A stretch of 64,000 bases of DNA from Rhizobium binae (GTDB lineage: Bacteria; Pseudomonadota; Alphaproteobacteria; Rhizobiales; Rhizobiaceae), in the NCBI RefSeq assembly GCF_017357225.1, contig NZ_CP071608.1, forward strand, positions 186,001 through 250,000, in the 5' to 3' direction. Positions 20,896 through 59,980 of the stretch are shown here, in pieces (position 1 is the stretch's first letter; the number at the start of each line of letters is the position of its first letter). Under the pieces are notes generated by a model that did no database searches, was not told where the DNA came from, and saw only the letters and a program-made list of their open reading frames with translations. The position numbers and the translations under genes were made by a program.

Positions 20896-21204
20896 AGTGA
20901 AGATCGTCACGACTAACCCTTGTATGGCCAGCGGCACATGCTTGAAGCAGGCACCGCAATCCTGTCAAATAGTCTCGCTCTAATTCCTCGGATACTCTCG
21001 CATCTGAAATTTTCCTCCGCGCACACCATGCTACTCCGCCGTCTCGGGGCAAAGGCTGTGGGATGAGAGGGATGCAGCCCGTCGCCCGCTCTTTCCGGCA
21101 TCAGCGAGCACACACGTCTGACGAAGTGGGCTCGGCACCGCTGCTTGTTGGCATTGATGAACCTTCGGTGACTTTGCGGCCTTCGTGGTCATCGGAGAAA
21201 GCGA
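20896..21204. other. Intergenic region between nodE and the rhiR 3' end
   Basis: About 310 bases with no convincing open frame, RNA or terminator. It may hold the breakpoint of the rearrangement that put the rhi genes between nodE and nodL. Confidence 0.5.
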
Positions 21205-21428
21205 TCACCACGCTGATATCAATTCGAGCGCCGTGGCTTTGGCGACAGCTTCACTGGTCGTGGCGACGGTCAGCTTTCGGCGTGCCGACGCAAGATAGAG
21301 CTGCACAGCACTTACCGAAATGGACAAGCGGGCGCAGATCTGCTTTGCCATTAGGCCGCTGGCCGTCATATCGAGAGGTAATCCTCCCGGGCATTAAAGG
21401 GGTTCAAAAGTAGAATTTTCTCGGCAAG

Positions 21429-21710
21429 ATGCTCGAGGAGATTTTGATGAAGAAGAGCCGATTTAGCGAAGCCCAGATCATGTCGGTGTTACGCCAGGCG
21501 GAGGGTGGGATGCCTGTTCCTGACCTGTGCCGCGAACATGGCATCAGCACCGCGTCGTTTTACAAGTGGCGTGCGAAGTATGGCGGGATGGACGCCTCCA
21601 TGGTGAGCCAGATGAAGGCGCTGGAAGAAGAGAACCGCCGCCTGAAGCGGATGTATGCGGATTTGAGCATGCAAGCCGATCTGTTGAAGGAGGCTCTTGG
21701 AAAAAAATGA
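21429..21710 (+). CDS. IS3-family transposase OrfA (copy 1)
   Basis: 93 residues with an N-terminal helix-turn-helix ([19 protein letters not shown], then [20 protein letters not shown]) and a C-terminal leucine-zipper-like segment ([18 protein letters not shown]). It binds the element ends. It ends in a run of A residues overlapping the orfB start, the usual place for programmed frameshifting that makes OrfAB. A conceptual start a few codons downstream (MKKSR) is more likely than the first Met. Confidence 0.93.
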
Positions 21711-22534
21711 CGCGGCCATCTCAGCGCCGGGAGCTGGCCGAGAAAGCAGTGGCGAAACGCGGTGTGAGTATCGCGCTGGCGTGCCGGACGTTTGGCGTCA
21801 GCGAAACCTGTTACCGGTATAGCCCACAACGCAATGTCGACAACGAGCAGATTGCCGATCTGTTGCTTGGGCTTGTGAAGATAAAGAAGACGTGGGGTTT
21901 TGGCCTCTGCTTCCTGCACCTGCGCAATGTTCAGGGGTATCGCTGGAACCACAAGCGGGTCTACCGCATCTACCGGGAGCTTGAGCTGAATCTGCGGATC
22001 AAGCCTCGCCGGCGGCTGAAGCGCGAGAAGCCGGATGAATTGGCAGTTCCGGCTGCGCCGAATATGGTCTGGTCGATGGATTTCATGGCCGACCGTCTCG
22101 CAGACGGTCGCCAGTTCAGGCTTCTGAACGTGTTGGACGACTTCAACCGCGAGGGCTTGGGCATTGAAGTCGACTTCTCGCTACCCGCCGAAAGGGTCGT
22201 GCGCAGTCTCAACCAGATCATCGAATGGCGGGGCAAGCCGCTGGCGATCAGGGTTGATAACGGCCCGGAATACGTCAGCGGCACGCTCATGGAATGGGCT
22301 GAAACACGGGGAATTGCCCTGAATTACATTCAGCCAGGCAAACCGCAACAGAACGCCTATGTCGAGCGCTACAATCGAACCGTTCGGCATGAATGGCTTG
22401 ATCTGTATATTTTTGACAGCATAACGGAGGTGCAGGAGATCGCCACAGAGTGGCTTTGGACATATAACCATGAACGGCCCAACATGGGCATTGGCGGCGT
22501 CACACCCGCTCAGAAACTGAAAATGGCCGCGTAA
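21707..22534 (+). CDS. IS3-family transposase OrfB, DDE integrase (copy 1)
   Basis: 275 residues from the ATG at 21707; the frame is open further upstream because it overlaps orfA. The retroviral-type integrase core is visible: the first Asp in WSMDFMAD, the second in IRVDNGPEY and the Glu in [17 protein letters not shown]. It should form the active transposase as an OrfAB fusion by -1 frameshifting in the A-rich overlap. No internal damage is seen, so the element may still be active. Confidence 0.93.
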
Positions 22535-23292
22535 ATTCTACAGTCAAACCCCGTTAAAACGGGGAGGATTACCGAGACATTGCAGTTCGCGGCGCGACAA
22601 TTGCGGAAAATCCGCAGTTTTTCTCAGGCCCGACAGAACCATGGCCCTGTCGTGGAGATGGTGGGCGAGAAACTGGAGGTCGCGCATGCTGTCCATGCGG
22701 AACCGACGCCAGTAGGAGGCGGGCTGATTGGAGGTGATCGTAAACAGCGATCGCTCCCCGTGAGGCCCACGCACCGGCAGTGTCACGCCTTGCTGCCCGA
22801 TACCGAAGGCCATCGCCTCCTTAAAGAAGCCGTGAGCCCGCCCTGAATCCCATTTTGACGCGGACCATTCCACGGGCAGAAAGCCGCGCTGTCCGAGCCG
22901 CACGACGGGATCGATGCTGAAGTAATCCCGGGCAAGATATTGCTTCACCCACTCGGGCGGGTAGGTCAGCATCAGCAATGGATTGTTGGCCGCTGCGCCC
23001 GAGGAGCGGGTCACATGCAGAACCATGTGCGATATCGCATAGATGTGGCGGACTTCGTCCAGCGTCGTTTCCAGATCTTCCAACGTCGGCGATGCGGAGA
23101 TCCGGTCCAAACTGTAGAAAAAACGAGAACTGCTCAGCATGAGATGGACTCGCGGTTGTGTGTTTTCCTGACTGGGGTAATCGTAACATTTCGCGGTTAG
23201 CGAGAAAAGAGCATTTTATGGCAACCATGGCGCGATGTGAAGAACAGGTTAAGGAACTGACGACACTGTGGGCGGCGGGACGGCGACTGGCC

Positions 23293-23931
23293 TTACCGCA
23301 TGCCACCATCGACAAGGGCTCTGCCAGGACAGGAAGAGGTTTCATTGAGAAGTCGGGCTAGGTTGGTGCGAAGTGTCCGACAGTTATCTGCAGTCACGTC
23401 CCACAGGCCGACATACAGTTTGCCGATCTCGGGCAGTGATCGGGCAAGCGGCGTCGGCCTCCAGCCGAGCCTGCGATACACCCCGACCATCGCCCCATCA
23501 TAGACGCCGACGATGTTTTCGATACCGGCGCCGAGGGCAAGATCGCAAAGCCCTGAGAGCAGTTCGGTGGCGACTGCGCGCGATTGCGCGATGTGTCCGG
23601 CAGATGGGTGAACGCAAAAGCGAGTACATTCCCAGGTCGTCGGGCTGTCGACGTCGATAGGCTGATCGAAGAAATGCCGAAACTCGCTTTTGAGCATCGT
23701 AGCGCCAGTGGTCGGCAGCAGGCGTAGCGAACCTGTCAGTGTGCCCGAAGGTCGTTGAGTGACGAGATATACGGGATCTTCGACCTCATCATATCGGTCC
23801 CTCTCCCATTGATCCCGGACATCGACCTGCCATCCCAGCCGATCGCGAAAAACGACGGCGCGAGCCCGAAACATTGCATCGAATGCACGTCGATCGGTCT
23901 CGAGCATGTCTTTGGTGAATATCCGCAACAT
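23293..23931 (-). CDS. rhiI: RhiI-like acyl-homoserine-lactone synthase
   Basis: 212 residues from the ATG at 23931, preceded by AGGAGG. It is a LuxI-family enzyme: the conserved N-terminal RAVVFRDRLGW, the D-R pair in DRYDEVEDPVYLV, GSLRLLPTTG and WECTRFCVHP are all present. It makes an N-acyl-homoserine lactone from S-adenosylmethionine and acyl-ACP. It lies upstream of rhiR on the same strand and next to rhiABC, supporting RhiI. It appears intact although its receptor gene rhiR is broken. A longer start 22 codons upstream is possible but less well supported. Confidence 0.9.
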   Translation of the reverse strand: MLRIFTKDMLETDRRAFDAMFRARAVVFRDRLGWQVDVRDQWERDRYDEVEDPVYLVTQRPSGTLTGSLRLLPTTGATMLKSEFRHFFDQPIDVDSPTTWECTRFCVHPSAGHIAQSRAVATELLSGLCDLALGAGIENIVGVYDGAMVGVYRRLGWRPTPLARSLPEIGKLYVGLWDVTADNCRTLRTNLARLLNETSSCPGRALVDGGMR

Positions 23932-24109
23932 ATCCGTTCCTCCTGATCGTCGATGTTTCACAACAGGGGCCGACCTCGAGCAATCTGGATATTTCACCAG
24001 ATTGACCGGCGCTTCGACTTACCTTTCATTTTCACAGGCATTTCCGAAGCTTGATCGATCTCAAGCTCGCTGTGGCTGCCACTTCAACGCAACCAAGGAA
24101 GAATCGTTC

Positions 24110-24460
24110 GTGACCTACGATCCAGCCCGCGGCAAACGCATTCGAGAAGCGATATCTCGGGGCAAGTTCCGGAAAGTACACGCTCTTGCAGCCGAACTGA
24201 ATGTATCAGTCGCGGCCGTCTCGCGCTGGCAAAATGGCGGCCATACGTCCCTGGAAAGCGCCTGCGCTCTCGCGCGCCTGCTGGATGTTTCCCTCGATTG
24301 GCTGCTCTTGGGGCGAGGGACCATGGACGGGCATAGGAACAGCGCGATCTCCGCCACGGAATTGCTGTGGGTAATGGCGCTACGCGGCCGATCTGCGGCG
24401 GCTCAGTCCAATCTTATTGGGCTGCTCGAATCCATCCCTCCGGAACACGCCTTACGCTAA
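24110..24460 (+). CDS. Small XRE-type helix-turn-helix regulator
   Basis: 116 residues from a GTG at 24110; the frame is open further upstream (to 23906) but that part overlaps the rhiI leader and lacks domain features. The helix-turn-helix is in VHALAAELNVSVAAVSRWQNGGHTS, followed by SLESACALARLLDVSLDWLLLG, as in Cro/CI-type repressors. It is divergent from rhiI and upstream of rhiA, so it may regulate the rhi genes. I know of no characterised counterpart at this position. Confidence 0.75.
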   Translation: MTYDPARGKRIREAISRGKFRKVHALAAELNVSVAAVSRWQNGGHTSLESACALARLLDVSLDWLLLGRGTMDGHRNSAISATELLWVMALRGRSAAAQSNLIGLLESIPPEHALR

Positions 24461-24639
24461 GCACAATTCTGAACGGTTTTTTAACTTGCTCTCAACAGCT
24501 TTAGGTTGCTTAAATGAGCAGCATCAACGATCTTTCTAATTAGGGTTTCATTGACGGGACCGGCAGGAAGGCTAGCCCACCCTGCCCTCGCCGACGCGAA
24601 GACCCTTGTTTTCACAATCAACGCAGAAGGGTTGCCGAC

Positions 24640-25311
24640 ATGTCAACAATGTTGACCATCAACGTGAAAAACTACGAATCCCAGACGCAAAACTTCTACT
24701 TCTTCCAGCAACCGGCAATTTATACCGGCGGCGGGCAAGTCTATTCGAACAGCCTTTTCTCGCAATCGCTCGGCAACTACGACAACACCGGCGCGATCCT
24801 GACCTTCCAGGTCAACCTGCAATACTATGCCGGCATCCAGCAGGCAAATACACCGCCGCAAATTGGCGCATCATCTGGCTACTCGTCAGCCAGCCGCGCC
24901 ATTGATCTTGCTCCGAGTTCGGGTGGCAGCGGTAAACCGAACGACTGGACGACTGCAACGGTCAATCCGCTCGGACTATCCTCGCCAATCTACGGGGAAG
25001 GTGTACAGCCTGGCGCATTCCGCATCACCACGCCGGTTTTCAACTCGCCGCCCTACTTCAATGTCGGCTCAGCGGTTGCCGTCAATGGCGGCATCGTGCT
25101 CTCCAACTTCGTGCAGGCAAACCCGGCCAGCAATACCGATTGCCAGCCGATCCTGAAATATTATGTCCAGACCGGCGCCTACACGCCAGGTGTTGTGATG
25201 AACTTCACGCAGTCGAGCGTGAACGCGGCGCTTTCCGACTTCACCGGCGGCTATTCCGTCTGCAACGTCAGCCTGAAATCTGACGGCACCTGGACGACGC
25301 AGCTCCAGTAA
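24640..25311 (+). CDS. rhiA: RhiA, rhizosphere-expressed protein
   Basis: 223 residues resembling RhiA, the abundant rhizosphere-induced protein of R. leguminosarum. It has no signal peptide and is rich in Asn, Gln, Thr and aromatic residues (NFYFFQQPAIYTGG, then PILKYYVQTGAYTPGVVMNF and SVCNVSLKSDGTW). The biochemical role is unknown; the rhi genes affect nodulation in some backgrounds and are controlled by RhiR. It is the first gene of rhiABC and paralogous to the next gene. A 13-bp perfect stem-loop follows it. Confidence 0.85.
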   Translation: MSTMLTINVKNYESQTQNFYFFQQPAIYTGGGQVYSNSLFSQSLGNYDNTGAILTFQVNLQYYAGIQQANTPPQIGASSGYSSASRAIDLAPSSGGSGKPNDWTTATVNPLGLSSPIYGEGVQPGAFRITTPVFNSPPYFNVGSAVAVNGGIVLSNFVQANPASNTDCQPILKYYVQTGAYTPGVVMNFTQSSVNAALSDFTGGYSVCNVSLKSDGTWTTQLQ

Positions 25312-25323
25312 ACCTTGGCAGCC

Positions 25324-25358
25324 ATGCAGGTGAAGAACCGTCCCCTCTTCACCTGCAT
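25324..25358 (+). terminator. Stem-loop between rhiA and rhiB
   Basis: A perfect 13-bp inverted repeat (ATGCAGGTGAAGA / TCTTCACCTGCAT) with a 9-base loop, 12 bases after the rhiA stop. No T-run follows, so it is more likely an mRNA-stabilising or partial attenuation element than a full terminator. Confidence 0.65.
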
Positions 25359-25432
25359 GCGCACCATCCGCGCGTTGCCGCCGCCCGCCGGGCGACGGAC
25401 AGGCTTGATCTCAGAGGGGATTGTCACGCGCC

Positions 25433-26152
25433 ATGACCAGTTCGTCCTACCAGATCATCGTTCGGAACTTCTCGCAGACGACGCAATATTTCTATGTTTT
25501 CCAGAAGCAGGCGGCATTTCCGTTGCTGCCGAGCCATGGTCCCATCCTCAGCGGCAGTCTCGGCTGCCAAAGCATCGGCAATTACGCAAGTTCGGGAGCG
25601 CAGATCAATTTCGGTTTGGACAGTCAGGTCTATGCAGGTGCCCTCAGCACCAAGCAGACCGCGTCGCCCTCGCAGCTTATCGCGCTTCTCTCGCTCAATG
25701 CCGCCACGCTATCCGTGGTCGGCAGCAGCTCGGCGTTCCGACCGGTTACGCTCACCACGGTCGACGGTTCGCCGGACAATTGCACGACCTTGACGCTCGA
25801 TCCGCTTGGACTTTCCGCGCCAGCCAATCAAGCCGGAGTTGCGATCGGAGGGTTTGGCATAAACGTGCCTTGCTACACGCCGTTGCCGCGTCCCGAACTC
25901 TATTGTGGCGTCGTTGCACTGAACGACAATCAAGCGATCATACTCTCGAGCTTCGTCGCTCCTGTCCCCAACGCCGTCATGAACTGCATACCTAAGCAAA
26001 TCTTTTTCGTGAAGATGGGCTACCAGCCGGTCGGAAGCACCGTGACTTATGACGAGAGCAACTCGGCATGCTGCGATTTCACGACCGGTTACGCGACCTA
26101 CACCGTGACTTACAAAGCCGACGGAACCTTTTCGGCGACAGGAGGACCATAG
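25433..26152 (+). CDS. rhiB: RhiB, paralogue of RhiA
   Basis: 239 residues from the ATG at 25433; a TTG four codons earlier is possible. It shares with RhiA the pattern YQIIVRNFSQTTQYFYVFQKQ at the start, LDPLGLSAP in the middle and FFVKMGYQPVGSTVTYDESNS with TYTVTYKADGTF at the end, so the two arose by duplication. It has more cysteines than RhiA. Function is unknown. It is the second gene of the RhiR-controlled rhiABC operon. Confidence 0.8.
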   Translation: MTSSSYQIIVRNFSQTTQYFYVFQKQAAFPLLPSHGPILSGSLGCQSIGNYASSGAQINFGLDSQVYAGALSTKQTASPSQLIALLSLNAATLSVVGSSSAFRPVTLTTVDGSPDNCTTLTLDPLGLSAPANQAGVAIGGFGINVPCYTPLPRPELYCGVVALNDNQAIILSSFVAPVPNAVMNCIPKQIFFVKMGYQPVGSTVTYDESNSACCDFTTGYATYTVTYKADGTFSATGGP

Positions 26153-26218
26153 ACCCAAAGATCCGGATCATCACTGACGCTTGAACAAGCCAACCCTTGA
26201 AACGAAAGGAATATAGCA

Positions 26219-26623
26219 ATGTTACGTATCACGTCGAAATTCGCTGGCCAAACAGCGCGTCGCAATAGAATTGCTGCCGGGCTTGCCATTTCCATCGTCT
26301 CTATCCTCGCAACAGCGCTGCCTGCCGCCGCACAACTCGTTTTTTCGTCCGATTGCCGGAACTACCAGCCCATTGCGGTCGCACCGCCGAACGACGCGAT
26401 CCTCTTCACCAAGCAGCCGGTGCCCCATCCGAACGGAACGGCCTCCGTCTTTGCGATCGTCGGAGCCGACACCTTTGTCATACCGGGTGGGGCCAACTCC
26501 TGCATCGTCGCCGCTCCCCCCGCCGATGACAATTACTGCTTCATTGCCCGCGACGACAACACGATCGATGGCGTCGGTTTTGCTGCCATTCGAAATCCGG
26601 GGGGCCTGACCGCCTGCCAGTAA
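26219..26623 (+). CDS. rhiC: RhiC, small periplasmic protein
   Basis: 134 residues with a clear signal peptide (AGLAISIVSILATALPAAAQ, cleavage near residue 39) and four cysteines in the mature part, suggesting disulfide bonds in the periplasm. Position downstream of rhiA and rhiB and the export signal match RhiC. No enzymatic motif is visible. It is probably co-transcribed with rhiAB. Confidence 0.8.
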   Translation: MLRITSKFAGQTARRNRIAAGLAISIVSILATALPAAAQLVFSSDCRNYQPIAVAPPNDAILFTKQPVPHPNGTASVFAIVGADTFVIPGGANSCIVAAPPADDNYCFIARDDNTIDGVGFAAIRNPGGLTACQ

Positions 26624-27298
26624 GGGGTGAATTTTCCACATCCAACAGTTCTCGTCCGATCTTGCGCGAAGGTGAGGCGGAAAGTGGAATATCCGCCTTC
26701 GCCCGCTGTCGCGCGCTTATCACCCTGGCGACCCAATTCTGCACGCTAAGAAGCAATCGGTGGGTGAAAGAAACTATAGATGAGCAGTTCATAGGCACTG
26801 GCCAGCGTGCGGTAATTTTTCAGGTTCCGAGGATTCTATTGACGGCGGCTGCGATAGCGGCCTCCGTCGGTGAACCACCCTTCGTCATGCCGCGCCCCGC
26901 CAAAACGCTGACGATTTGCATTCCCGCCGGCATCGAGCAAGGCGGACGGGCCATAGAGCTGGGATAAAATAAACCCTTCGGGAAGCTGGGCAGTGATTTG
27001 AGTAAAAGTCCTAATGAAGGTCTCTTAGTCAGCCCTGGTCTGCCTATGCGCTTGCCGCTGTGTTCGGAATCTGCCAAGCTAAATAGACACATCTTATTGT
27101 GCCCTCCCCAGCCGGTGAATGCGAAGGTCGCTCCCGGTCTGCCTATCTGCAGGATTTGCCGCGCTTGAGCAGATGACTTTCGAACCAGCCGCGAAAAGGC
27201 GAAAGATTGCTGTTAACTCCTCTGTGCGCTCTGCCGGCAACCAGGTGAATTTGAGCGCAATGACCGACCACTCCTCGAACAAGATCTGAGAAGAGACG
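26624..27298. other. rhiC-nodL intergenic region
   Basis: About 675 bases with no supported gene. A 38-codon frame (27173-27289) ends 10 bases before nodL, but nothing shows it is translated. No nod box was found before nodL. Confidence 0.5.
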
Positions 27299-31279: not shown

Positions 31280-32416
31280 TTGCATTCGTTCCGTCTGGCC
31301 GCTGCGGTGTTGCCGCTACTTTTGTCATCTTGCATGCTCGGGCCCGACCATGCACCGCCGGAAACGCCTTTACCGGAGAAGTTTTCCGAGGGTGCAAAAC
31401 AGAGCGCCGGCGATGTTGCGGTGTCGGCGTGGTGGGATTCGTTTTCAGATCGTACGCTCGACCAGTACGTTGCCTCCGGCCTGGATGAGAACCTCAGTGT
31501 TCAGCAGGCGCTCGAAAAGATTAATGCCGCCGCCGCGGACGTCACCATCGCTGGCGCCGGGGGCCTTCCCAAGGCATCACACACGACAAGCGGCGAGATC
31601 GGCAAAGGGGGAGATGTCACGAGCACACAGAATGTCTCCAGCGTGCAACTACTGAATTTTCGCGTGTCGGCGCATCACATTGCGGCCCTCCTCGCTTTGC
31701 CGTCGGAAACAGTGATCAAGCAACTGCAGAAAAGTGAAGGGCAGCCGGTCTATCGCGGAAAGATCAATGCCGGCATTCCCGCCGATCTTATTTGCAATCG
31801 ATTCGATATTCGCCAGGCTGAACGGGATCTAGCCGCCGCGACTGCACAGATCGGCGTGACGGAAGCACAGCTTTACCCCGCGATAACGCTCTCCGGCTCG
31901 ATCACCCCTTCCTATATCAAGCAGCGCGGCCGTCACGGGGGTATCTTGAAATGGTCCTTCGGGCCGAGCCTTGACCTCCCAATTCTGGACGGCGGCCGTT
32001 TGCAGGCAAACGTGGAGACTTCTAAATCCGACGCCGCAGCAGCCTACATAAGCTGGAAATTAACCGTCCTGACAGCTGTGCAGGAAGTCGAGGACGCTTT
32101 GACAGCCGTCCGACGCGACGTTCACACAGAGAACTCACGTCGCAGGCAAGTAGAAACGATCGAAGAAGCACTGAAGCTTTCGATGGCCTCGTACACGGAT
32201 GGCGCCTCTTCTCTCCTCGATGTTCTCGAAGCGCAAAGGCAGATGTCCAGCGCTCAGGCGAGCCTCGCTGCGGCGATCCAACAACTGGCCAAGGATCACG
32301 TGCGGTTGAATGTAGCAATCCGCGGTGGTTTTGCGGCTCCCAAAGTCGCGTCACCCAGGGAGGCCTCGACGGTTGCAGCCGCAAATGCAAACATCCAATC
32401 CGCACATTCGCAATAG
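31280..32416 (+). pseudogene. nodT: nodT, outer-membrane efflux lipoprotein with an internal in-frame deletion
   Basis: 378 residues; NodT of the TolC/OMF family is about 480. The N-terminus has a lipoprotein signal (VLPLLLSSC, TTG start) and the conserved PLPEKFSEG and WWDSFSDRTLDQYV. From about residue 125 the text jumps to LNFRVSAHHIAALLALP, which in the family comes about 100 residues later; the rest (ERDLAAATAQIGVTEAQLYPAITLSGS, and the helical coiled-coil end SMASYTDGASSLLDVLEAQRQM) is normal. The missing part holds the first OMF repeat's helices and beta strands, so a working outer-membrane channel is unlikely. The frame is kept, so a shortened protein may be made. It is the last gene of nodMNT. 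Confidence 0.85.
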
Positions 32417-56577: not shown

Positions 56578-57379
56578 TGACATCCGCTACAGATCCTCGG
56601 GAAGCTTCTTAAGTGGCGGCAAAATGGACTCCATTTGAAGCAATCTGGGAACGACCTGAGGCGGTCCGCGGTCATTGCCGGGATCTATCTGCAACTCGAC
56701 GGTCACTCACTGTGCCGAGTGCGTTCGCGACCTCTTCAAGCATCCGGCTTGCTGGCGAAGACATTGACGCTGTCTCCGGGTTGGTTTGACTGGTCTGCCT
56801 CTCAGAGAGAGCATTCTCAATTTGAAACTCCGCTACAATCCCGCGCAACTGTTTTGCCTCGATGGCAAGTGCCGTACTTGCAGCCGTGGATTCCTCGGCC
56901 ATGGCTGCATTTTGCTGCGTAACCTGATCCATTTGATTGACTGTCCGGTTGACCTCAAAAAGGGTTGCGGACTGTTCGTTGGAAGCGGCGGTGACGGCAT
57001 CAAGCTGAGTGTTGATCAGGACTATCTGTTGAATGATAATCTTGAGTGCATCGCCGGTGTCTCGGACCAGCTTGACGCCACTGCTGACCTCATCAACCGA
57101 ATTGAGGATAAGATTCTTGATTTCTTTTGCTGCGTGCGCGGAGCGTTGAGCAAGCTCCCGCACCTCCTGGGCAACCACCGCGAAACCTTTTCCTGCCTCG
57201 CCGGATCGTGCCGCCTCGACGCCTGCGTTGAGCGCCAGAAGATTGGTCTGAAACGCGATTTCGTCGATGACCCCCACAATACTGGAGATCTGCGAGGATG
57301 ACTGTTCGATGCGTTGCATTGCTGCCACAGCGCTTGAGACGGTAATCCTCCCCGTTTTAACGGGGTTTGACTGTAGAAT

Positions 57380-58207
57380 TTACGCGGCCATTTTCAGTTT
57401 CTGAGCGGGTGTGACGCCGCCAATGCCCATGTTGGGCCGTTCATGGTTATATGTCCAAAGCCACTCTGTGGCGATCTCCTGCACCTCCGTTATGCTGTCA
57501 AAAATATACAGATCAAGCCATTCATGCCGAACGGTTCGATTGTAGCGCTCGACATAGGCGTTCTGTTGCGGTTTGCCTGGCTGAATGTAATTCAGGGCAA
57601 TTCCCCGTGTTTCAGCCCATTCCATGAGCGTGCCGCTGACGTATTCCGGGCCGTTATCAACCCTGATCGCCAGCGGCTTGCCCCGCCATTCGATGATCTG
57701 GTTGAGACTGCGCACGACCCTTTCGGCGGGTAGCGAGAAGTCGACTTCAATGCCCAAGCCCTCGCGGTTGAAGTCGTCCAACACGTTCAGAAGCCTGAAC
57801 TGGCGACCGTCTGCGAGACGGTCGGCCATGAAATCCATCGACCAGACCATATTCGGCGCAGCCGGAACTGCCAATTCATCCGGCTTCTCGCGCTTCAGCC
57901 GCCGGCGAGGCTTGATCCGCAGATTCAGCTCAAGCTCCCGGTAGATGCGGTAGACCCGCTTGTGGTTCCAGCGATACCCCTGAACATTGCGCAGGTGCAG
58001 GAAGCAGAGGCCAAAACCCCACGTCTTCTTTATCTTCACAAGCCCAAGCAACAGATCGGCAATCTGCTCGTTGTCGACATTGCGTTGTGGGCTATACCGG
58101 TAACAGGTTTCGCTGACGCCAAACGTCCGGCACGCCAGCGCGATACTCACACCGCGTTTCGCCACTGCTTTCTCGGCCAGCTCCCGGCGCTGAGATGGCC
58201 GCGTCAT
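57380..58207 (-). CDS. IS3-family transposase OrfB, DDE integrase (copy 2)
   Basis: 275 residues from the ATG at 58207, identical in translation to the copy in rhiR, with the same D-D-E core ([24 protein letters not shown]). The frame is open upstream through overlap with orfA. No damage seen. Confidence 0.93.
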
Positions 58208-58485
58208 TTTTTTCCAAGAGCCTCCTTCAACAGATCGGCTTGCATGCTCAAATCCGCATACATCCGCTTCAGGCGGCGGTTCTCTTCTTCCAGCGCCTTC
58301 ATCTGGCTCACCATGGAGGCGTCCATCCCGCCATACTTCGCACGCCACTTGTAAAACGACGCGGTGCTGATGCCATGTTCGCGGCACAGGTCAGGAACAG
58401 GCATCCCACCCTCCGCCTGGCGTAACACCGACATGATCTGGGCTTCGCTAAATCGGCTCTTCTTCATCAAAATCTCCTCGAGCAT
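58204..58485 (-). CDS. IS3-family transposase OrfA (copy 2)
   Basis: 93 residues identical to OrfA of copy 1: helix-turn-helix followed by a leucine-zipper tail, ending in the A-rich overlap with orfB where frameshifting makes the OrfAB transposase. Confidence 0.93.
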
Positions 58486-59980
58486 CTTGCCGAGAAAATT
58501 CTACTTTTGAACCCCTTTAATGCCCGGGAGGATTACCAGACCACTTCGCCGGAGTGGCGCGCCGACTTGTTTGCCTCGATCGCAACATGTCGCGCCTCCG
58601 CTGTGCGCTTTGAGGAACTGGCGACGTTCTGGGCAATCTGATCCAAAGCGGCGGCGGTTTGCTCCAGTGAAGCAGCCTGATGCTCTGTGCGGCGTGACAG
58701 GTCCTGCGCGCTCAAACTGATTTCCTGCGCCCCGCCATCGATCGATTCAGTTGCGTACGACACAGCTCTCAAGCTCTCAGCGAGTTGGGCAACGGCAGCA
58801 TTAAAATTCGCCCGTAACGGTTCGAAGTCGTCGGCGAATTTGTCGTCGAGGCTGAACAGGAGGTTCCCATCGGCGAGATGCCTTAGGCCTTCTGCAAGCC
58901 CGGAAGTTGCCTCCGCCATATCCTGCGCTCGCCGATGCTCGGTCTCGGCGAGACGCGCACGTTCAATCTCATTTGCTTCACGGCTTGTCTCTGCATCCTT
59001 TTCGAAATCGCGCGCCCGTAACTCGTTGTCCTTGAATATCTGTACTGCCCGGGCCATCGATCCGATCTCGTCGCGGCGAATCGTTCCCTTAACAGTCGAA
59101 ATGAGATCGCCGTCGGCTATGACCTCCATTGTCGTAACCATCTGCTTGATCGGTTTGACCAACCAGGAGCGAATTGCGAGAAAGCCGAAGCACGAGACAG
59201 CGAAGAGTGCCACAATAGCTGTTCCCAAACTCAGCACGGACGTGTCACGGACAACGCTTGAAACGTCACCACGCTTTTGCTCTGCGTCCGAAGCGAGTTT
59301 TTCCGTGACGGATGTGAATCTCGGTGAGACAGCAGCAAAGGCGGGTTGGCAAAGAGTGAGATAGAGTTGCTGCACCATGGCAAGCTCGGCTTCACTAGTT
59401 GCGCCGCGACCAACTGCGATGGCTGCACCACACGTATCGGTCAGGACGGAGAATCCATCCGCCTTCAACTTCGGCAGTTCGCTCTGCCCAGGAACTGCAG
59501 CGATCGCCAGATCCATGAACCTGACGAAGTTTTCTCGTGCGTCATTCAAGCCAGCTTCAGCGCGCGCCCTCGCCTCTTTCGACCGTGTCATCACCATGTC
59601 GCTGATGCTGGCACGCGCTGTTTCCAGACTTCGGTTCGACTGGGTCAAGCGTAGTGCTGCAGATGCATCTCTATCGAGAAGCTCCTGATATCTGTCGTTA
59701 ACCTTCAGCATTTGCCGGTTCTGATAGAACGTCAGACCGAGTGCCAGGATGCCGAAGACAGCCACGATGATAAAGAACTTACCGACAATGGAAACGTTTT
59801 TCACAGGCCACTCCTCTAAGATCACTTACGGCAGATGGATGTTCAGATTCTGATGGTTTGATGTCTCGGGTTTTAAAAAAATGGCTGCCGCCGACCTCCT
59901 AATCGACGACAGCCAAGTTGCCTGGGAGGGCAGGAGAAAAGAGTTGAAACCCCAGATGGCGATAGTAAGTGCACTTTCTG

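Follow-up and report, generated by a model that had tools for sequence, protein, structure and literature searches.

The closest described relatives of the locus analysed here are RaiI/RaiR of Rhizobium etli CIAT 652 (CP001077) and related raiIR loci, which share with it 87-89% protein identity, the raiI-raiR gene order and an XRE-type neighbor. CIAT 652 also has the same 24-bp dyad upstream of raiI, with one mismatch. Its raiIR genes lie beside dadR/dadX (context given in PMC13133039), whereas those described here lie between nodE and nodL. Unlike CIAT 652, the present strain has three extra genes (A, B and C) and two plasmid copies of the locus, one of them cut by an insertion sequence (IS). 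The order nodFE-raiR-raiI-XRE-A-B-C-nodL is shared with plasmid p4 of Rhizobium sp. NLR16a and plasmid p3 of R. bangladeshense PLR8-1a, but raiR there is without the IS. A 2014 paper (PMC4149787) states that the genes under raiIR control were still unidentified.

A LuxR-type receptor without its DNA-binding domain is known from the octopine-type Ti plasmids of A. tumefaciens. This protein, TrlR, shares 88% identity with TraR and has no DNA-binding domain, and the dimers it forms are inactive (PMC3907764, PMC11655674, PMC7856919). As in the RaiR fragment described below, the AHL domain is kept, the DNA-binding domain is absent and a close full-length partner is present in the cell. However, TrlR is opine-inducible and its antiactivator activity has been shown, whereas the RaiR fragment is due to an IS and its antiactivator role is putative. 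Heterodimers of related LuxR-type proteins from two plasmids are discussed for one Agrobacterium (PMC7856919). Natural loss of a plasmid LuxR-type receptor is likewise described for rhizobial traR, through a frameshift in UPM791 and an IS upstream of traR in CIAT899 (PMC5852556); the present case differs in both receptor and lesion. According to PMC13133039, transposase genes are found close to many quorum-sensing loci of rhizobia, and the degraded systems it describes comprise luxI and luxR pseudogenes, short LuxI proteins, and loci missing luxI or luxR; an IS-cut raiR was not found in its main-text parts on degraded systems. Nor did a limited literature search on raiR or luxR homologues with insertion sequences find a report of an IS in raiR.

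The window, i.e., the whole 64,000-nucleotide stretch that was analysed, is part of the symbiosis plasmid C5 of Rhizobium binae. Its rai block (window 20896-27298) is located between nodE and nodL. These two genes are adjacent in strain 3841, and the rai block also separates them in NLR16a p4 and PLR8-1a p3. The receptor and synthase genes and the regulator next to them are as follows (window coordinates).

22574..23140, minus strand: raiR 5' piece, codons 1-189, encoding the autoinducer-binding domain and the first HTH residues (Autoind_bind 21-165; amino-acid identity 98.9% to NLR16a, 87% to CIAT 652 RaiR)
22544..23140, minus strand: truncated RaiR open reading frame, 198 aa, consisting of 189 native and 9 junction/IS residues (open frame, AF2 model)
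21205..21376, minus strand: raiR 3' piece, an open frame from the remaining HTH to the natural stop codon, one GAGA copy included (sequence comparison)
23293..23931, minus strand: raiI, AHL synthase, 212 aa, intact (open frame, domain, homology)
24110..24460, plus strand: XRE-type regulator, 116 aa, divergent from raiI (87.6% to the CIAT 652 gene beside raiI)

The first-pass annotation had named the receptor and synthase genes rhiR and rhiI. By orthology to annotated proteins they are instead raiR and raiI: the 189-residue receptor piece matches CIAT 652 RaiR at 87% and the raiI product matches CIAT 652 RaiI at 88% (87-89% over the compared length), versus 23-27% identity to the strain 3841 proteins. 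RaiR of the intact second copy, on plasmid C7, is 23% identical to RhiR of R. johnstonii 3841 and RaiI is 26-27% identical to RhiI, and the truncated C5 RaiR gave no match to 3841 RhiR at E 0.01. A profile search of the genome showed five Autoind_synth synthases and eleven Autoind_bind receptors, the latter number including both raiR and one remnant. Since the best identities across those loci are only 24-26% to 3841 RhiI and 22-30% to 3841 RhiR, no RhiI/RhiR orthologue was found at the loci of all five synthase and eleven receptor matches. Judging by where they lie, the remaining three synthases are putatively traI (C5, C6) and cinI (C1). C5:77033-77227 holds what remains of a further autoinducer-binding protein gene, with a TGA in frame.

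The minus-strand LuxR-type gene in 21205-23140 is cut after codon 189, within the HTH domain, by an insertion sequence of the IS3 family.

21377..22573, plus strand: IS3-family insertion sequence, 1197 bp (domains, full-length matches, ends)
21429..21710, plus strand: IS orfA, 93 aa, HTH_Tnp_1 (ORF and domain)
21527..22534, plus strand: IS orfB open frame, 335 aa, rve integrase core (ORF and domain)
21373..21376: target-site duplication copy 1, GAGA (the empty site has a single GAGA)
22574..22577: target-site duplication copy 2, GAGA (the empty site has a single GAGA)

The element ends in 12-bp perfect repeats, GGTAATCCTCCC, and its ends read GGTAATCCTCCC...GGGAGGATTACC. These limits agree with full-length matches (1-1197) in several other replicons. 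Both transposase ORFs are open, and the two-ORF transposase (HTH_Tnp_1 in orfA, rve in orfB), the terminal inverted repeats and the short target-site duplication are features of the IS3 family, as is the annotation "IS3 family transposase" carried by its relatives. With its 4-bp duplication the element may be a member of the IS407 subgroup. The empty site with one GAGA is present in NLR16a p4, the nearest plasmid found. In the intact C7 twin the autoinducer-binding domain spans residues 23-165 and the HTH (GerE) residues 180-234, so that about 10 HTH residues are left in the C5 fragment. The two raiR pieces, examined separately, have neither a stop nor a frameshift, and they differ from NLR16a at 3 of 567 and 2 of 172 bases.

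So far the insertion is known from this genome alone, and it is recent. Two more copies of the IS in the genome are 100% identical and both are on C5, one at window 57340-58537 with the target-site duplication GTCT and the other at C5:135799-136999, where a matching duplication is absent; diverged copies (87% and 78%) are on C6 and C7. The raiR-IS junction was found in none of 72,556 plasmid records (no record covers 80% of the 80-base junction query and nine match it on one side; the search possibly omits records closely resembling the own genome). Among 148 genomes of the genus it was found in one, the window's own, with up to three mismatches allowed. Recency is supported by the identical copies, the intact duplication, the five nucleotide differences from NLR16a and the junction that occurs in the own genome only. 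The first-pass annotation had described a LuxR-type gene cut in its DNA-binding domain by a 1197-bp IS3 element with a GAGA duplication, recently and with no other defect, next to an intact AHL synthase gene. The ends, the duplication, the empty site, the unimpaired pieces and the synthase frame, open over 212 residues, all bear this out.

Two observations concern the other identical copies. The copy at 57340-58537 separates a HAMP part (58533-59825, minus strand) from an MCP signalling part (56672-57328, minus strand), which look like one split chemotaxis receptor gene. The copy at C5:135799-136999 is about 1.3 kb upstream of nifH, amid other transposase gene fragments whose types were assigned by eye.

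An intact 244-aa raiR is present on C7 (C7:89072-89806) of this genome (8 contigs, 7.06 Mb), accompanied by raiI, XRE and A-C. The C7 plasmid is collinear with much of window 2809-31128. The C7 RaiR is ~95% identical to C5 RaiR; the raiR pieces differ at 27 of 567 and 7 of 172 nucleotides, with nine amino-acid changes across the shared 189 residues. nodA occurs twice in the genome, on C5 and on C7. repC is also found on both and the two are 53% identical, so C5 and C7 are predicted to be without obvious incompatibility. C7 carries nodABCDEFIJLMN, nifA, nifB, fixC and fixX, its nifH is reduced to codons 1-31, and nifDKEN were absent from the 80 kb examined (C7:50001-130000) of its 231 kb. In the whole genome a single nifH passes the cut-off, and it lies on C5. 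nodA is present in 65 of the 148 genus genomes, 31 of which are assembled in at most 10 contigs (row count); among those 31, full-length nodA on two different contigs was found in the own genome only. A limited search of partly available literature on two symbiotic plasmids in Rhizobium found nothing on co-resident nod plasmids. A strain with two nod plasmids and a full nifH on C5 alone is a useful case for symbiosis-plasmid co-residence.

The best explanation, with a rough probability of 0.75, is that the IS has created a recent null in C5 raiR which is tolerated via redundancy, the C7 RaiR keeping Rai autoinduction at both raiI genes. The IS cuts off the DNA-binding half of C5 RaiR, and with that half removed C5 raiR would be unable to activate. 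The C7 RaiR, ~95% identical, would be expected to bind the same kind of AHL and to act on the presumed box before each raiI, on C5 and on C7. Because the C7 receptor is near-identical and the presumed box precedes both raiI, Rai autoinduction would go on through it, and the redundancy of two co-resident nod plasmids would make the break in C5 raiR tolerable. Ligand preference could differ between the C5 and C7 receptors, given the nine amino-acid changes in 189 residues. The insertion, the identity of the genes, the intact twin and the shared dyad are shown by the sequences, whereas we infer the box assignment, the cross-complementation of C5 by C7 and the tolerance of the break. The system is corrected from Rhi to Rai, and the expected phenotype is a strain that probably still responds.

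The sequence upstream of raiI is conserved around CAAYCTGGTGAAATATCCAGATTG and contains the presumed box.

23981..24004 (C5:209981): presumed RaiR box, dyad CAATCTGG-N8-CCAGATTG, 49 bp before the raiI start (conservation, position)

The perfect 24-bp dyad occurs in the 7.06 Mb genome only at C5:209981 and C7:88202, each before a raiI. With 0-2 mismatches it is present in 27 of 27 raiI upstream regions, taken from 22 of 23 surveyed loci (L035-L057, without L056, which has no raiI) and from C5, C7, NLR16a, PLR8-1a p3 and CIAT 652. Its distance to raiI is mostly 48-51 bp; in L048 and L057, with the raiI start taken from tblastn, it is 98 and 157 bp. Scans over the full length of 22 loci found it once in each. 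This conserved dyad agrees with the criterion given for RaiR/RaiI in the relevant part of PMC5977203. It is presumed, from conservation and position, to be the RaiR box, and we infer that its evident target would be raiI itself on both plasmids. Such a candidate box, perfect only before raiI, is useful because the raiIR-regulated genes were stated as unidentified in PMC4149787. An exact copy of the PraR motif TTGCAA (described in the same source) was not seen by eye in the 152-bp raiI-raiR spacer.

A wider RaiR regulon defined by the dyad was considered and nothing convincing emerged: no one-mismatch site was among the matches listed for the genome, and the seven sites with two mismatches are all inside open stretches of at least 377 codons. 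Five of the three-mismatch sites were inspected. With up to three mismatches there are 51 matches per strand, with many sites counted on both strands, versus 12 and 19 for the reversed control, an excess which leaves room for weaker real sites. In the window alone there are four matches versus 1.14 expected; 7 of 100 shuffles gave at least as many. No perfect 6-bp-arm dyad was found ahead of gene A on C5; this search is a weak one, as the one-mismatch boxes of CIAT 652, L037 and L042 escaped it as well.

The alternative that survives best, tentative and on balance unlikely, is that the truncated C5 RaiR is made and active. It would then be a TrlR-like antiactivator that forms DNA-nonbinding dimers with C7 RaiR and damps or delays Rai signalling. 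The sequence features of a TrlR-type protein are present: a kept AHL domain, a lost DNA-binding domain and a close full-length partner in the genome. The fragment ORF retains codons 1-189 and the upstream spacer with few differences from NLR16a. The counterparts of the AHL-pocket residues, W64, Y68, D77, P78, W92 and G118, are invariant in 35 aligned sequences, the six being those named for CerN (in the part of PMC11655674 concerned) as mapped by alignment and by eye. The AF2 model of the 198-aa fragment has a mean pLDDT of 85.7, with block means of at least 80 across most of residues 1-169 and of 71 for block 91-100. Its best matches are ligand-binding domains of LasR (TMt 0.88); it also matches TraR and QscR. 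Precedents are TrlR (PMC3907764, PMC11655674, PMC7856919) and CerN (PMC11655674). However, expression of TrlR is inducible in its own right and CerN is established as a gene; the present case is a single recent insertion that shows no sign of selection, and residues 191-198 of the model are of low confidence (pLDDT below 50). Among 52 database relatives just two have no HTH domain in the Pfam column, one a 200-aa protein from a 5.4-kb contig, the other an R. lentis fragment of 115 aa. The stronger form, an IS-made dominant-negative in which the C5 fragment would bind the AHL common to both receptors and poison C7 RaiR, with the nod plasmids disturbing each other's density sensing, is doubtful. 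If true, the fragment would be a TrlR analogue caught at birth. The strain is a natural one in which a single deletion would separate null from dominant-negative.

It is improbable that rai/nod blocks from two strains were mixed in one assembly, in which case the C5 strain would truly be without RaiR. The nearest plasmid records are NLR16a p4 for C5 (99.2% over 89% of an 11.7-kb query) and R. bangladeshense PLR8-1a p3 for C7 (98.5% over 8 kb), plasmids of two different lentil strains, which speaks for such mixing. But the contigs belong to one 8-contig assembly, with completeness given as 100 and contamination as 1.42, and the repC genes of C5 and C7 are just 53% identical. The reading of the first-pass annotation, that AHL is made and the response absent, takes its appeal from a broken raiR beside an open raiI on C5, but it is very improbable and as stated not supported, because C7 carries raiI and an intact, ~95% identical RaiR, the presumed box precedes both raiI, and the genome has 11 Autoind_bind matches (both raiR and one remnant included).

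The state of raiR was also surveyed in relatives. raiR-like copies of at least 86% identity number 39 in 35 of the 148 genomes (hand count), with two copies each in the own genome (G000), G006, G107 and G008. All except two begin at residue 1 and extend to residue 229 or beyond (37 of 39), the exceptions being the C5 copy (1-189) and that of G052 (87-244). raiR is open over 240-244 codons in 21 of 23 loci checked (L035-L057), and L053 has an altered C-terminus (230 aa). In L056 (R. lentis SEMIA 4036) raiR is frameshifted and 5'-truncated and raiI was not found in the 16.7-kb locus, an independent case of rai decay. Widespread decay of raiR from internal stops was considered and rejected; the "stop" is where 241-aa proteins end naturally, three residues short of the 244-aa end.

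The genes beyond the XRE-type regulator had been called rhiA, rhiB and rhiC by their order.

24640..25311, plus strand: protein A, 223 aa, the former "rhiA" (no Pfam match)
25421..26152, plus strand: protein B, 243 aa, a paralogue of A, the former "rhiB" (no Pfam match)
26219..26623, plus strand: protein C, 134 aa, the former "rhiC" (no Pfam match)

By blastp, and for A and B also by hhalign, the three are no orthologues of RhiA/B/C. None matches these proteins in blastp at E 0.01, and at E 10 there are short pieces only, the best being 22 residues between B and RhiA (E 0.059). An hhalign comparison of A/B with RhiA gave a probability of 7% and E 0.0053 (single comparison), at best a remote hint that A and B might be related to RhiA by fold. 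Proteins A and B are paralogous to each other (34%, E 4e-31). Protein A differs from its R. beringeri TP24 homologue by 50 nucleotides and no amino acid, and is more constrained than its paralogue and neighbor B (91.6% at the amino-acid level). Compared with 3841 NodT, nodT further along the window (31280-32416) is shorter by ~104 codons in frame, corresponding to residues 125-228.
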